A stretch of DNA of 22,483 nt from a virus. Location: the IMG/VR virus record IMGVR_UViG_3300047560_000787, positions 1 through 22,483 of that record. One strand, 5' to 3'. Positions 5,933-13,136 of this stretch are shown in pieces. A program made the position numbers and the translations under genes. Each line of letters opens with the position of its first letter. The stretch's first letter is position 1. Below the pieces are notes generated by a model, which saw only the letters and a list, made by a program, of their open reading frames with translations, did not search any database and was not told the DNA's origin.

Positions 5933-5997
5933 AGGAACCCTACAGCATTAATGCCGCGAGGCACTTTTTATGGGAAAAAGCAAAGTGGTTCCTGTTG
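5933..5997 (+). ncRNA. GNNG-tailed RNA family, unit 1
   Basis: AGGAACC (5933-5939) pairs perfectly with GGTTCCT (5987-5993). The 5' strand is followed by the box CTACAGCA (5940-5947) and the 3' strand by GTTG (5994-5997). The 47-nt insert forms TGCC-GCGA-GGCA (5952-5963) and CTTTTT/AAAAAG (5964-5980), then GCAAAGT before the 3' strand. It starts 5 nt after the stop codon of the barrel gene and ends exactly 5 nt before unit 2. Confidence 0.75.
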
Positions 5998-6002
5998 TTT
6001 TT

Positions 6003-6125
6003 AGGCTATCTACAGCACATTTTTTGCTTATGACGCCGTAGGTCGTGGGTTCGAGTCCCACCTCAGAGGTCATAGATCGATGAGTAGCTCAGTTGGATAG
6101 AGCGACGAAAAAGTATAGCCTGTTG
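6003..6125 (+). ncRNA. GNNG-tailed RNA family, unit 2, with permuted tRNA module (Y-RNA-like)
   Basis: AGGCTAT (6003-6009) pairs with ATAGCCT (6115-6121), box CTACAGCA (6010-6017) and tail GTTG (6122-6125). A second 7-bp helix (6019-6025 with 6108-6114) stacks on it. The insert is a tRNA in circularly permuted order: variable AGGTC, T-arm GTGGG-TTCGAGT-CCCAC (6045-6061), then CTCA/TGAG and GGTC/GATC joined across an ATA loop (6062-6084, a closed acceptor stem), TA, then D-arm GCTC-AGTTGGATA-GAGC (6087-6103). ACG (6105-6107) pairs with CGT (6037-6039). The closing helix thus replaces the anticodon arm, as I recall for bacterial YrlA Y RNAs that bind Ro60. Confidence 0.78.
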
Positions 6126-6140
6126 TATATATAGAATTGA

Positions 6141-6214
6141 GACCCTAGAGCATGACGGTAATGCAAGCGTCTCTAAAACGTATGATATGGGTTCGAGTCC
6201 CGTTAGGGTCACCA
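6141..6214 (+). tRNA. Amber-suppressor tRNA, anticodon CTA
   Basis: Acceptor GACCCTA/TAGGGTC is perfect, D-arm GCAT-GACGGTA-ATGC, anticodon loop CTCTAAA (6171-6177) with CTA at 6173-6175 pairing with UAG, T-arm ATGGG-TTCGAGT-CCCGT, A73 and encoded CCA. The outermost anticodon-stem pair is A-A and the next is G-U. The anticodon loop differs from tRNA-Trp(CCA) at 4042 by one base, and its D-arm resembles tRNA-Cys. The charged amino acid cannot be told from sequence. Confidence 0.87.
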
Positions 6215-6231
6215 ATAGTTGGAGTATTAAA

Positions 6232-6270
6232 ATGAAAGCATTTTTCCTCTAGGTTTTTAGACCGCCTTAA
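6232..6270 (+). other. Mini-ORF with in-frame amber codon
   Basis: TTGGAG (6219-6224) precedes ATG 6232. The frame reads MKAFFL, then TAG (6250-6252), then VFRPP and TAA (6268-6270). Six codons are translated without suppression and twelve with it. It starts 18 nt after the amber-suppressor tRNA and ends just before a promoter. It may be a leader peptide or minigene, or chance. Confidence 0.35.
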
Positions 6271-6278
6271 TTTTCCTA

Positions 6279-6307
6279 TTGACACGTTATATCTAATACT
6301 TTATTAT
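6279..6307 (+). promoter_or_regulatory. Sigma-70-type promoter
   Basis: TTGACA (6279-6284), a 17-nt spacer, then TATTAT (6302-6307), 18 nt before ATG 6326. Confidence 0.78.
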
Positions 6308-6325
6308 TAAACAATAGGAAACAAA

Positions 6326-6796
6326 ATGTCTATAGAACTCAAAATCAAATCAAAGCATCTAGCTCTCGAACCGGCTATCATTCGCAAAGAAGAGCAGAAG
6401 CTAAACAAACAAATCAAACACTATAAGATGCATCATCAGATTGCTAGCGATGATGATACTTGGTCATATTCTAAGAATCATCCCGATCTTTATAGTCTGT
6501 GTTTGAAACGTGGCAGTTTGATATGCCATCGAAAGTGGAATGTTCGTAATGAAGCACGTGCAACATATCTTGCGCGCGCCTATATCAAGGGTGTTCCATA
6601 TAGAGTAGTGGAATCTAACTGTAAAGAAAAACTTTGGGTTCCAGTTATGGAAAGTTTAGTTCGTATGGTCATGAAGTATGGTAAGACATATTACAGACCA
6701 GACTACGAAAAAACTCCAACAGGGGTAAGGAATCTACTTAAGACGGCCGAATGTAAAGCCGAAGAAGACGTCCTTGCTTGGTTGAATAAAGAATAA
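6326..6796 (+). CDS. Hypothetical phage protein
   Basis: A 156-residue basic, soluble protein; no recognised family. N-terminal residues 1-40 are strongly helical and Lys-rich. The middle part has YLARAYIKGVPYRVVES and may be a compact helical domain. The basic character fits nucleic-acid contact, but there is no diagnostic motif. It has its own promoter at 6279 and an AGGAAAC ribosome site. It separates the two blocks of structured RNA; unit 3 of the RNA family begins 6 nt after its TAA. Confidence 0.75.
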   Translation: MSIELKIKSKHLALEPAIIRKEEQKLNKQIKHYKMHHQIASDDDTWSYSKNHPDLYSLCLKRGSLICHRKWNVRNEARATYLARAYIKGVPYRVVESNCKEKLWVPVMESLVRMVMKYGKTYYRPDYEKTPTGVRNLLKTAECKAEEDVLAWLNKE

Positions 6797-6802
6797 AGTT
6801 TT

Positions 6803-6864
6803 AGGATTGTTACAGCATACATGCACTTGTTTTGTAAACAAACCTGCAAAGGGCAATCCTGTAG
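6803..6864 (+). ncRNA. GNNG-tailed RNA family, unit 3
   Basis: AGGATTG (6803-6809) pairs perfectly with CAATCCT (6854-6860), box TTACAGCA (6810-6817) and tail GTAG (6861-6864). The 44-nt insert has GCAT-AC-ATGC, a TTGTTT/AAACAA stem and GCAAAGGG before the 3' strand. Unit 4 starts exactly 5 nt later. An alternative pairing GTAGTTT (6861-6867) with AAACTAC (6886-6892) would link units 3 and 4. Confidence 0.75.
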
Positions 6865-6869
6865 TTTCT

Positions 6870-6988
6870 AGATTGGCTTCCGCAAAAACTACTTACTTGG
6901 TTCGATTCCAAGGCTCCCCGCCATTATGGGGAGCTGGGCTGGCGCCCCCGTAGAGGTCTTCCTCTATGGTTTCCCCACCAATCTGTTG
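6870..6988 (+). ncRNA. GNNG-tailed RNA family, unit 4, with permuted tRNA-like module
   Basis: AGATTGG (6870-6876) pairs with CCAATCT (6978-6984), box CTTCCGCA (6877-6884) and tail GTTG (6985-6988). Inside, a canonical T-arm CTTGG-TTCGATT-CCAAG (6896-6912) is followed by acceptor strand GCTCCCC, G, CCA, a short linker, then GGGGAGC (6928-6934). The acceptor is therefore closed by a loop and the 3' half precedes the 5' half. Next come a D-like arm GGGC-TGGC-GCCC (6936-6947) and a 9-bp hairpin (6948-6969). A competing fold pairs GGGGA with TCCCC (6972-6976) before a second CCA. The tail overlaps the next promoter. Confidence 0.7.
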
Positions 6989-7014
6989 ACATTTTTAACG
7001 TATAGTAGTACTAT
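6986..7014 (+). promoter_or_regulatory. Sigma-70-type promoter for the RNA array and Ro-like gene
   Basis: TTGACA (6986-6991), a 17-nt spacer, then TACTAT (7009-7014). The start TTGACATTTTT matches the promoter at 2156. Transcription from about 7021 would run through units 5-8 into the Ro-like gene, with no terminator between. Confidence 0.78.
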
Positions 7015-7033
7015 ATCAGAGTTAAAGAGTTTA

Positions 7034-7088
7034 GGGATCAGTTCAGCAACTAACTGCTTCGCATATAGCAACCAAGATGATCCCGCTG
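7034..7088 (+). ncRNA. GNNG-tailed RNA family, unit 5
   Basis: GGGATCA (7034-7040) pairs perfectly with TGATCCC (7078-7084), box GTTCAGCA (7041-7048) and tail GCTG (7085-7088). It is the shortest insert (37 nt), with GCAACCAAGA before the 3' strand. TTCAGC (7042-7047) could also pair with GCTGAA (7085-7090). Unit 6 starts 5 nt later. Confidence 0.7.
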
Positions 7089-7093
7089 AATTA

Positions 7094-7182
7094 AGAATGC
7101 TTTCTGCATGTAACATGGTTGATCAACGATATGCGCTCGCGCATTTCCGTCTGGAGGTTCAATTCCTCCGAGCATTCTGTAG
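7094..7182 (+). ncRNA. GNNG-tailed RNA family, unit 6, with T-arm
   Basis: AGAATGC (7094-7100) pairs perfectly with GCATTCT (7172-7178), extended to nine pairs including one G-U (7094-7102 with 7170-7178). Box TTTCTGCA (7101-7108) and tail GTAG (7179-7182). A tRNA T-arm GGAGG-TTCAATT-CCTCC (7153-7169) sits next to the closing helix as in a normal tRNA. The anticodon position is instead a tight hairpin ATGCG-CTCG-CGCAT, so it is tRNA-like but cannot decode. Confidence 0.68.
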
Positions 7183-7187
7183 AATCT

Positions 7188-7354
7188 AGGTTAGATACAG
7201 CAAAAAGCTGCATTTGAAATCGCGATAACAGCGAAGGCGATAGAACGGAGGCATCTGTCTATCGGGTGGTCGAGGAAACTCGTAACAACCTGACTTTTTG
7301 TAGTCACGTACTACAAGTGAGTGGTGTACCACAATGATGCGAGCTAACCTGTCG
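7188..7354 (+). ncRNA. GNNG-tailed RNA family, unit 7 (largest)
   Basis: AGGTTAG (7188-7194) pairs perfectly with CTAACCT (7344-7350), box ATACAGCA (7195-7202) and tail GTCG (7351-7354). The 149-nt insert is highly structured: GCAT/ATGC (7210-7213 with 7337-7340), CGATAGA/TCTATCG (7238-7264), CGAG-GAAA-CTCG (7271-7282, GNRA loop), TTGTAGT/ACTACAA (7298-7316) and GTGG/CCAC (7321-7332). An outer AATCT/AGATT pairing is also possible. Confidence 0.73.
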
Positions 7355-7359
7355 ATTTA

Positions 7360-7423
7360 AGATTCAGTTCCGCAACCAAATGAAAAGCAATTTCGTAACT
7401 TGCTCAACAAGTTGAATCTGTAG
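7360..7423 (+). ncRNA. GNNG-tailed RNA family, unit 8, in the 5' UTR of the Ro-like gene
   Basis: AGATTCA (7360-7366) pairs perfectly with TGAATCT (7413-7419), box GTTCCGCA (7367-7374) and tail GTAG (7420-7423). The insert contains AACTTG/CAAGTT (7397-7413). It ends 15 nt before the Ro-like start codon; the ribosome site AAAGGAAAAG lies in between, so this unit could also act as a cis-regulator. Confidence 0.72.
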
Positions 7424-7438: not shown

Positions 7439-8872
7439 ATGACTACTTTTGTAAATGCCGTCGTAAACCAGTCTGCCCGTACTGAGAACGGGATGAAGGC
7501 ACGTCAGAACACAGCCAATGCGTTGACTGACTTGTTCTTCAAGATCGGCGCTATGCGCGGTCAGAACGTGATCCCTGTATGGACTGCTGCTCGTGTTCAA
7601 GATCCTGTTATGGCGGGTCGTATCGCTCTCTGGGCGCGCGACGTTCGCGGCGGTGCCGGTGAGCGTAAGATCTTCCGCGACATCCTCGTAGATCTTGCTA
7701 ACACTGATCAGATCCGGGCAGCTGAATTGATGCGTAAGGTTCCTGAGCTCGGTCGTTGGGACGACTTGCTTGTACTCGTAGGTACTCCTATGGAAGAGCA
7801 AGCGTTCTATATGATTCGTCTCGCTCTCGAAGACAACATTGGTCTCTGTGCTAAGTGGATGCCTCGTAAGGGTGAAGTAGCTGCGAAGCTGCGTGCACAC
7901 CTTGGCTGGACTCCTAAGTTCTACCGCAAGCGTCTAGTCGAGTTGACTAAGGTCGTCGAGACTCAGATGTGTGCTGGTAAGTGGGACGAGATCAACTTCA
8001 ATCATGTTCCCTCTGTAGCTTCTGCTCGTTACAAGAAGGCGTTCGCTCGTCATACTGAGAAGTACAAGGAGTGGGCTGCTGCTCTTGTGTCTAAGGATCC
8101 TGAAGTCGCTAAGACTGTAAAGGTCAACGCCGGTGCGGTGTATCCCTACGACGTGCTGAAGGGCCAGATCGGCCACTATCGTATGTCCTACACTCAGGAT
8201 AACCTAAACCACATCTTGGCTCAGTGGGAAGCTCTGCCTAACTACGTCGGTGACGCGAACGTCCTTCCTATCGTCGACGTGTCTGGGTCTATGACCTGTG
8301 CTGCTGGTGGACATCAGTCAAAGTCTGGTGTAACTTGCCTTGACGTATCTGTGTCTCTTGGTCTGTATCTTGCAGACAAGAACAAGGGTAAGTTCAAGGA
8401 TACGTTCCTGACTTTCTCTGCTAAGCCTCAACTTCTGCACTTGAAGGGTAACGTCCTCGACAAGATCAAGCAGATGATTGAGTCTAAGTGGGAGATGAAC
8501 ACTAACCTGCATGCAGCGTTCGACAAGATCCTGCAGGTAGCTATCGAAGGCAATGTTCCTCAGGAAGAGATGCCTGGAATGCTGCTGATCCTCTCGGATA
8601 TGCAGTTCGATCAGTGTGCTTCATACGACGACTCCGCTATGCAGATGATCGCTCGTAAGTATGCTGAGGCTGGGTACAACGTACCAAACATCGTTTTCTG
8701 GAACATCAACGCGCACGACAACGTGCCCGCTAAGTTCAATGAGAAGGGTGTAGCCCTCGTGTCTGGCTTCTCACCAGCGATCGTCAAGGGTGTCCTCGCC
8801 GCTGATCTTGATGACTTCACACCAGAAGCCATCATGCTGAAGACGATCATGTCAGAGCGCTACGACTACTGA
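7439..8872 (+). CDS. Ro60-like TROVE/vWA protein (DUF2828-like)
   Basis: A 477-residue protein with the architecture of Ro60 orthologs: an all-helical HEAT-like N-terminal domain (about 20-265; ALWARDVRGGAGER, LGRWDDLLVL, and CAKWMPRKG) and a C-terminal von Willebrand A domain. The vWA MIDAS is complete: DVSGS (280-284), T355 and D387 in LSDMQF. The N-terminal motifs fit Pfam DUF2828, which I regard as TROVE-like; this relationship is from memory. Ro60 binds Y RNAs and misfolded RNAs and in bacteria works with PNPase. Six structured RNA units directly upstream, two of the family being tRNA-permuted, support an RNA partner. ATG 7439 follows AAAGGAAAAG. It is GC-richer and codon-smoother than its flanks, suggesting high expression. 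Confidence 0.82.
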   Translation: MTTFVNAVVNQSARTENGMKARQNTANALTDLFFKIGAMRGQNVIPVWTAARVQDPVMAGRIALWARDVRGGAGERKIFRDILVDLANTDQIRAAELMRKVPELGRWDDLLVLVGTPMEEQAFYMIRLALEDNIGLCAKWMPRKGEVAAKLRAHLGWTPKFYRKRLVELTKVVETQMCAGKWDEINFNHVPSVASARYKKAFARHTEKYKEWAAALVSKDPEVAKTVKVNAGAVYPYDVLKGQIGHYRMSYTQDNLNHILAQWEALPNYVGDANVLPIVDVSGSMTCAAGGHQSKSGVTCLDVSVSLGLYLADKNKGKFKDTFLTFSAKPQLLHLKGNVLDKIKQMIESKWEMNTNLHAAFDKILQVAIEGNVPQEEMPGMLLILSDMQFDQCASYDDSAMQMIARKYAEAGYNVPNIVFWNINAHDNVPAKFNEKGVALVSGFSPAIVKGVLAADLDDFTPEAIMLKTIMSERYDY

Positions 8873-12788: not shown

Positions 12789-13136
12789 GTGAATAGCCAG
12801 TTTCATACAGCATGTGTCAAGAACTTCGTGAAGCTGTCGCTGATCACAGTAGCAGCACTCACTAGTACTCTCGGTCTACGTACCGAGTTGATCGTTATCA
12901 TCGGCGATCCGTTCGTATCTACTTGGATCGCCATCGTGTGGGTGCTGACGATCATCACAGTTCTGGGGTACTACAAAGCCAAACAGGACGTCGAGCTTGA
13001 GGTATTCCGCGAACACGAGCGTAATCGCCACATCCTCGGCATGCCGCCCATCGGCACCAATAACGCTATCTACTCGAAAAAAGAGTCTGGCGAGTTGCAA
13101 TTGGGCGATCAAGTTTTCCTCAAAGAGGATAAATAA
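12789..13136 (+). CDS. Two-pass membrane protein
   Basis: A 115-residue protein with two hydrophobic segments (about 14-37 and 43-61), then a charged cytoplasmic-like tail. It uses GTG immediately after the previous stop, with GGAGG upstream. Function unknown; position suggests an early host-envelope or takeover role. Confidence 0.7.
   Translation: MNSQFHTACVKNFVKLSLITVAALTSTLGLRTELIVIIGDPFVSTWIAIVWVLTIITVLGYYKAKQDVELEVFREHERNRHILGMPPIGTNNAIYSKKESGELQLGDQVFLKEDK

Follow-up and report, generated by a model that had tools for sequence, protein, structure and literature searches.

The unit at positions 6870–6988 (plus strand) of a viral genome fragment is most likely a phage Y RNA that mimics a tRNA in the manner of YrlA, and it is one of eight units that precede the gene for a Ro60-like phage protein of the DUF2828 family. 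The fragment, hereafter the window, is an IMG/VR virus record of 22,483 bases, which carries 20 tRNAs (ARAGORN) and a family B DNA polymerase. The eight tandem units (R1–R8), all on the plus strand, occupy positions 5933–7423 directly upstream of the DUF2828 gene.

An array of eight units upstream of a Ro60-like gene

The preliminary description of this DNA had taken 6870–6988 for the second tRNA-like module; it is instead R4, one of eight tandem units rather than the second of two. That description missed their common denominator, the enclosing stem with its motif: every unit has a stem AG-N5 ... N5-CU and a conserved (N)NCNGCA motif. A strict scan (an AG-N stem, then NNCNGCA, closed by CU-GYNG) returned eight sites in the window, seven of them within the array, against a mean of 0.07 in the shuffled windows used as control; the one site outside the array (12799–12839) is isolated. 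R5 is the eighth unit, with slightly deviant ends that place it outside the strict count. A search for direct repeats recovered the recurring edges TTTTAGG...ACAGCA and CCTGTTG.

The units are almost contiguous in 5933–6125 and 6803–7423, with a tRNA gene, an ORF and short gaps between. Four are short hairpins of 56–65 nt: R1 (5933–5997; end stem AGGAACC/GGTTCCT, motif CTACAGCA), R3 (6803–6864; AGGATTG/CAATCCT), R5 (7033–7088; GGGATCA/TGATCCC, motif GTTCAGCA, with a looser 3′ end, GCTG) and R8 (7360–7423; AGATTCA/TGAATCT), which stops 16 nt short of the Ro60-like gene's start codon. R7 (7188–7354) is long, at 167 nt, with end stem AGGTTAG/CTAACCT and a multi-helix interior (z −3.0). The other three, R2, R4 and R6, contain a T-arm. 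R2 (6003–6125) is a YrlA-type unit with a permuted tRNA, made up of the T-arm, a short acceptor (CTCA/TGAG) and a D-arm. In R6 (7094–7182), the end stem (AGAATGCT/AGCATTCT) has the T-arm stacked immediately on it; the unit's weak match to the tRNA-Sec model (18.6 bits) is not significant. Orthologues were found for R1, with compensated stems, in loci L003 (AGGATCC) and L011 (AGGATCT); for R3 in L005, L006, L010 and L014; for R5, with canonical ends, at L004:844–897; and for R7 at L007:2442–2618.

Several other features lie in the same region. Directly after R2 is a tRNA (6141–6214) with the amber anticodon CUA, named "tRNA-Pyl" by ARAGORN, and an encoded ACCA. Amber-codon recoding by this tRNA was considered and is unsupported: three small ORFs end in TAG, and the read-through is short. 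A putative promoter-like site, TTGACA-17-TACTAT (6986–7014, plus strand), lies between R4 and R5 and overlaps the 3′ end of R4, and a second, with a perfect TTGACA, is at 6279–6307; promoter-like sites are no more numerous in the window than in shuffles.

The gene that follows the array (7439–8872, plus strand) encodes a 477-residue protein with DUF2828 and DUF7788 matches, PHROG 850 ("RNA-binding protein") and a MIDAS motif, DVSGSM. The MIDAS residues D280, S282 and S284 (DxSxS of the vWA domain) are invariant among 24 sequences. The predicted fold of this protein, modelled from a 24-sequence alignment (pLDDT 79), matches Ro60. Its top folds are the TROVE domain 9kop, the Thermus phage phiLo Ro60 9l5y, the D. 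radiodurans Rsr 2nvo, and the Xenopus and human Ro60 (Foldseek E 7e-8 to 5e-4; VIA-align Z 16.6 to 10). All nine PDB matches at E ≤ 0.001 in Foldseek are TROVE/Ro60 structures, and VIA-align puts the same family first. A sequence search against PDB sequences returned nothing, so that the Ro60 link came only from the fold search, and because the Pfam TROVE profile had no match at E ≤ 0.001 (only DUF7788 and DUF2828 were reported), we call the protein Ro60-like by fold. The annotators of Ochrobactrum phage OC gave the same name, via HHpred; a literature search for a paper on DUF2828 found none.

Relatives of DUF2828 are encoded in 79 viral contigs and in 682 phage records. We examined the 1.6 kb preceding the DUF2828 gene in 81 loci: 68 carry units on the coding strand, and none of the 81 carries any on the other strand. 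In 53 of the 68 loci with units, the last unit ends 10–28 nt before the ATG. This spacing is what favours reading the array as a 5′ leader only, in which Ro60 binds the last hairpins at the ribosome-binding site and stops its own translation, the tRNA parts being decoration or stabilisers. We consider that highly unlikely, because there are as many as eight units, a good number of which contain tRNA domains that are elaborate and covary, and because some units lie downstream of the Ro60-like gene or among tRNA genes. Autoregulation by Ro60 could, however, be something that the last unit alone does in addition.

Among known phages, units occur in Listeria LP-048, E. coli wV8, Aeromonas APT65, Enterococcus EFGrNG and mycobacteriophage LeBron, and also in Cronobacter phage S13 and KVP40. 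Eleven of the 15 known-phage loci had no strict open unit (one with the end stem open) in the 1.6 kb upstream; six of these have units elsewhere nearby (L082, L084, L087, L089, L091 and L093), and the others had none within the stretch examined. Across whole records, strong model matches fall mostly within about 5 kb of the gene, and 8–40 kb away in three records. No near-identical DNA was found among sequenced phages, and the distant search yielded fragments only. In Listeria phage CKA15, three very highly transcribed non-coding regions, which its authors suspect to be Y RNAs, lie less than 2 kb upstream of an Rsr-like gene, and the Rsr-like protein is present in purified particles (PMC12282133). 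The related Listeria phage LP-048 has three units in the corresponding upstream region. Taken together, these observations give an independent hint of expression, by analogy, and suggest the units as candidates for what is transcribed so strongly from non-coding regions in P100-like Listeria phages.

The tRNA-like unit R4 and its relatives

R4 is enclosed by a 7-bp end-pairing stem. The 5′ strand, AGATTGG (6870–6876), leads into the motif CTTCCGCA, the two spanning 6870–6884, and the 3′ strand, CCAATCT (6978–6984), is followed by GTTG, so that the closing part spans 6978–6988. Within this stem lie the T-arm CTTGG-TTCGATT-CCAAG (6896–6912), a permuted acceptor stem (6913–6934), and a D-like hairpin with a 9-bp arm (6936–6969), the latter in the place of an anticodon arm. 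The acceptor begins with its 3′ strand, GCTCCCC (6913–6919), which is followed by GCCA (6920–6923), TTAT (6924–6927) and the 5′ strand GGGGAGC (6928–6934). The D-like hairpin, GGGC-TGGC-GCCC (6936–6947), has a minimal loop of just 4 nt, and the 9-bp arm (6948–6969) has a UCUU loop. All of the elements from the T-arm to the closing CCAATCT had been picked out in the preliminary description and are present in the unit, and the 7-bp acceptor with its 3′ strand first does pair exactly, as had been claimed. The minimum free energy (MFE) fold of the unit, which equals the centroid, reproduces these elements (−50.9 kcal/mol, z −4.67; 0 of 200 shuffles as stable). A second CCCC-A-CCA occurs at 6973–6980, its CCA falling within the closing strand. 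The alternative pairing GGGGAG/UUUCCCC is kept in L052, L070 and L072 and is the weaker helix of the two; it may permit the switch that the preliminary description had proposed.

Compensatory change in relatives was assessed for both classes of T-arm and acceptor unit. Across 13 loci, R2-type units have 91.5% of cells paired and compensatory changes in 21 of 26 pairs, with a covariation score of 0.619 compared with at most 0.113 in slid controls. The R2-type covariance model gave 107 matches in 59 loci, all on the Ro60 strand. Ordinary adjacent tRNAs score 30–36 bits with this model; thus, only stronger matches are specific, and the 29.9 bits of R4 are not decisive. R4 represents a second class, of which a member follows an R2-like unit in L004, L005, L006, L014 and L049 and another is found in L012. 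Its close relatives in L052, L070 and L072 have the form ACTCCCC-NCCA-(about 80 nt)-GGGGAGT, with a D-like hairpin, an extra arm and CTTTCCCCA. Since the permuted form is conserved in all nine of these loci, it does not stem from a recent rearrangement in R4, the circumstance that had been named as speaking against the original interpretation. The suggested covariation check bore out the acceptor: in the R4 class, 66 of its 70 cells are paired, and double changes occur at 5 of its 7 pairs. The counting was manual, because the 80-nt spacers prevented alignment with MAFFT, and used units picked in part for their pairing.

More broadly, an exact 7-bp acceptor abutting the T-arm (loop ≤8) is present in 13 of 37 T-arm units, compared with 0.12 in shuffles, and of 18 exact cases, 5 have NCCA immediately after the acceptor 3′ strand. 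Because the scan selects stems for pairing, counts of pairs in these stems are conditional on that choice, and a fair test is given by the strand control and by the slid controls. A chance hairpin at R4 was rejected on the fold z-score together with these acceptor/T-arm counts against shuffles.

Neither ARAGORN nor the Rfam tRNA model calls a tRNA at 6870–6988, and R4 has no match in Rfam. On these negatives and the covariation, a plain tRNA or a tRNA remnant was rejected. Two adjacent tRNAs read in permuted order were also considered; R4 has its own end stem and no flanking tRNA bodies. The broader idea that the units are a decayed tRNA gene or functionless tandem tRNA remnants draws on the density of tRNAs in the window and on the way two adjacent tRNAs imitate the permuted order in the model search. 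It is strongly disfavoured, and in our judgement extremely unlikely, because the acceptor pairs exactly and shows compensatory changes in relatives, and because the end stem and motif are perfect and conserved across many phages.

The preliminary description had suggested, from the encoded GCCA, that R4 either descends from a real tRNA by permutation or is a permuted tRNA that is processed. Derivation from a tRNA by circular permutation is supported by the NCCA joints, by unpermuted relatives and by anticodon arms that can be restored in other units (see below). The second suggestion is unsupported for this unit: R4 lacks the anticodon arm of a complete permuted tRNA, so a processed, decoding tRNA is unlikely here.

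Other arrangements of the same parts were seen in related loci. Permuted units with NCCA and a 70–100-nt spacer occur at L016:273–460, L049:3261–3459, L052:8314–8526, L070:9052–9240 and L072:6937–7124, and the spacers have similar ends (..ATACA.. / ..TGTATCTTTGAT in most), as if they were a separate element. At L039:2173–2240 and L075:2530–2590, acceptor minihelices with an encoded GCCA run straight onto the closed stem motif, with no D- or T-arm. Long units of 220–258 nt that share this end stem and enclose a large interior lie at L033:4656–4913, L048:4690–4943 and L075:4549–4767; those of L033 and L075 had no Rfam match at the gathering threshold.

Two topologies and the anticodon arm

Alongside the open units there are closed ones, in which the tRNA is unpermuted and the stem forms a hairpin within the anticodon stem. 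A search for closed hairpins found tRNA frames in normal order in Cronobacter S13, Synechococcus BUCT-ZZ01, Aeromonas AsFcp_1 and APT65, KVP40, Citrobacter Ci1 and Vibrio phage 1.081.O, as well as in viral contigs such as L031. The closed units of KVP40 are the annotated "tRNA-Pseudo-3" and "tRNA-Pseudo-5" plus two unannotated ones; "tRNA-Pseudo-4" is alike by eye, with an imperfect stem. The two unannotated tRNA-stem chimeras are on the reverse strand of L097 (KVP40 173500–187000), near tRNA-Pseudo-3/-4/-5. In Cronobacter S13 (L084:5896–6138), the annotated "tRNA-Ser" (121 nt) and "tRNA-OTHER" are likewise tRNA-stem chimeras and are probably mis-annotated.

In closed units the insert interrupts the 5′ strand of the anticodon stem, mostly after position 28 or 29, and most of these units carry an encoded NCCA. 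A perfect anticodon arm (5-bp stem, 7-nt loop, U33 and purine 37) results from removal of the insert in 13 of 18 closed units (0.13 expected) and from rotation in 7 of 13 open, permuted units (0.11 expected), although these counts overstate the number of separate events, since we parsed the 31 units by hand and the related loci among them are not independent. Rotation of R2 gives ACG|GC-TTATGAC-GCCGT, with anticodon AUG. The arm is also present in L003/L004/L049/L023; it is missing from R4, L005, L014, L056 and the second unit of L093. Some perfect arms have anticodons beginning in A (ATG, ATT and AGG), which are rare in working bacterial tRNAs.

The restored arms raise the question of whether the units are precursors of permuted or intron-bearing tRNAs, with the stem excised at about position 29/30, the anticodon halves ligated and the acceptor joint cleaved to yield working tRNAs, much as happens with permuted tRNA genes in red algae and archaea. 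Consistent with this are the arm counts themselves, the encoded NCCA of most closed units and of some permuted joints, and the RNA ligase genes nearby in Serratia phage BF and Listeria LP-048. We nevertheless regard it as unlikely. The same stem occurs without any tRNA part in R1, R3, R5 and R8 and is therefore not simply a tRNA intron; the odd A-initial anticodons and the lost anticodon arms, without which R4 cannot decode, argue against decoding; and no bulge-helix-bulge is apparent by inspection. Distinctly unlikely, too, is the form of this idea in which the Ro60-linked stem is a removable tRNA insert, in either gene order, from which a phage RNP and RNA ligase make working tRNAs. If true, it would amount to a tRNA splicing and permutation system of bacterial viruses outside group I introns.

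Proposed role and comparison with known systems

As a tRNA-mimicking Y RNA, R4 would belong to a scheme in which we infer transcription, cutting, Ro60 binding and an effector. The leader would be cut into separate units, each of which would dock on the Ro60 ring through its end stem and the NNCNGCA / A-rich internal loop, and the far end, which varies from unit to unit, would be the working end. In R2 and R4, the far end would be a tRNA closed at its acceptor ends and opened instead within the anticodon stem, where the Ro60-docking stem would take its place. These two units may present a tRNA-like acceptor/T-arm, and in R2 also an anticodon arm, to tRNA-binding host or phage proteins. Such proteins would then be tethered to Ro60, or the units may act as decoys for host defences that cut tRNA. 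The tRNAs encoded by phages are known to play a part against defences of this type.

The same tRNA parts thus occur in both circular permutations, some with an anticodon arm and CCA, which suggests a direct route from tRNA to Y RNA. To our knowledge, tRNA-mimicking Y RNAs are established, and their origin and purpose are not. The route could be tested in laboratory phages, namely, the Felix O1-type wV8, KVP40, S13 and LeBron, and the Y RNA reading would account for several annotated phage "pseudo-tRNAs." The kind of RNA is itself already known, since Chen et al. in 2014 (RNA 20:1715) reportedly described, for over 250 species of bacteria and phages, likely Y RNAs close to Ro60, with at least one Y RNA per species containing a tRNA-like domain. 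What appears to be new here is the grouping of units in an array, their stem motif, the NCCA where the permuted ends join, and the existence of two topologies: the array form, stem motif, NCCA joint and unpermuted counterparts were not found in the literature searched, and "permuted tRNA" with "bacteriophage" returned only reviews or other subjects.

Among known RNAs, YrlA (RF02553) is close in plan. Both have an adjacent Ro60 or Ro60-like gene and an end-pairing stem followed by a conserved asymmetric internal loop, and R2 and R4 share with YrlA the order of T-arm, acceptor with reversed strands and D-arm. They differ in that the array has up to eight units, its stem motif is AG-N5-NNCNGCA / A-rich / CUG in place of the Rfam YrlA consensus CGAAUGC / ACUUGUCG, NCCA is found at some joints, some members have an anticodon arm, and unpermuted members exist. 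R2 scores 40.1 bits against the YrlA model, under the gathering score of 69, R4 does not match, and the Ro-site letters differ from the consensus; because the gathering score is not reached, we file the units as Y-RNA-like and not as RF02553. The protein compares with Ro60/Rsr (2nvo and phiLo 9l5y) in a similar way: the predicted fold matches over nearly the full length and the MIDAS DVSGSM is shared, whereas identity is about 15% and the Pfam assignment at E 0.001 is DUF2828/DUF7788, not TROVE.

Permuted tRNA genes are known from the red alga Cyanidioschyzon and some archaea. Like them, the units have the 3′ half first and a short spacer at the joint, with an encoded CCA in some relatives; unlike them, they bear the Ro60-linked stem at an opening near position 29/30, show no evident bulge-helix-bulge, and in the case of R4 have no anticodon arm. 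Further counterparts are certain annotated tRNAs and pseudo-tRNAs of phages (KVP40 tRNA-Pseudo-3/-4/-5, Ci1 tRNA-Pseudo-AAC and S13 tRNA-Ser/tRNA-OTHER), which combine the stem motif and tRNA parts as in the array but, in contrast to R4, are unpermuted, with the stem closed inside the anticodon stem and the acceptor ends free.
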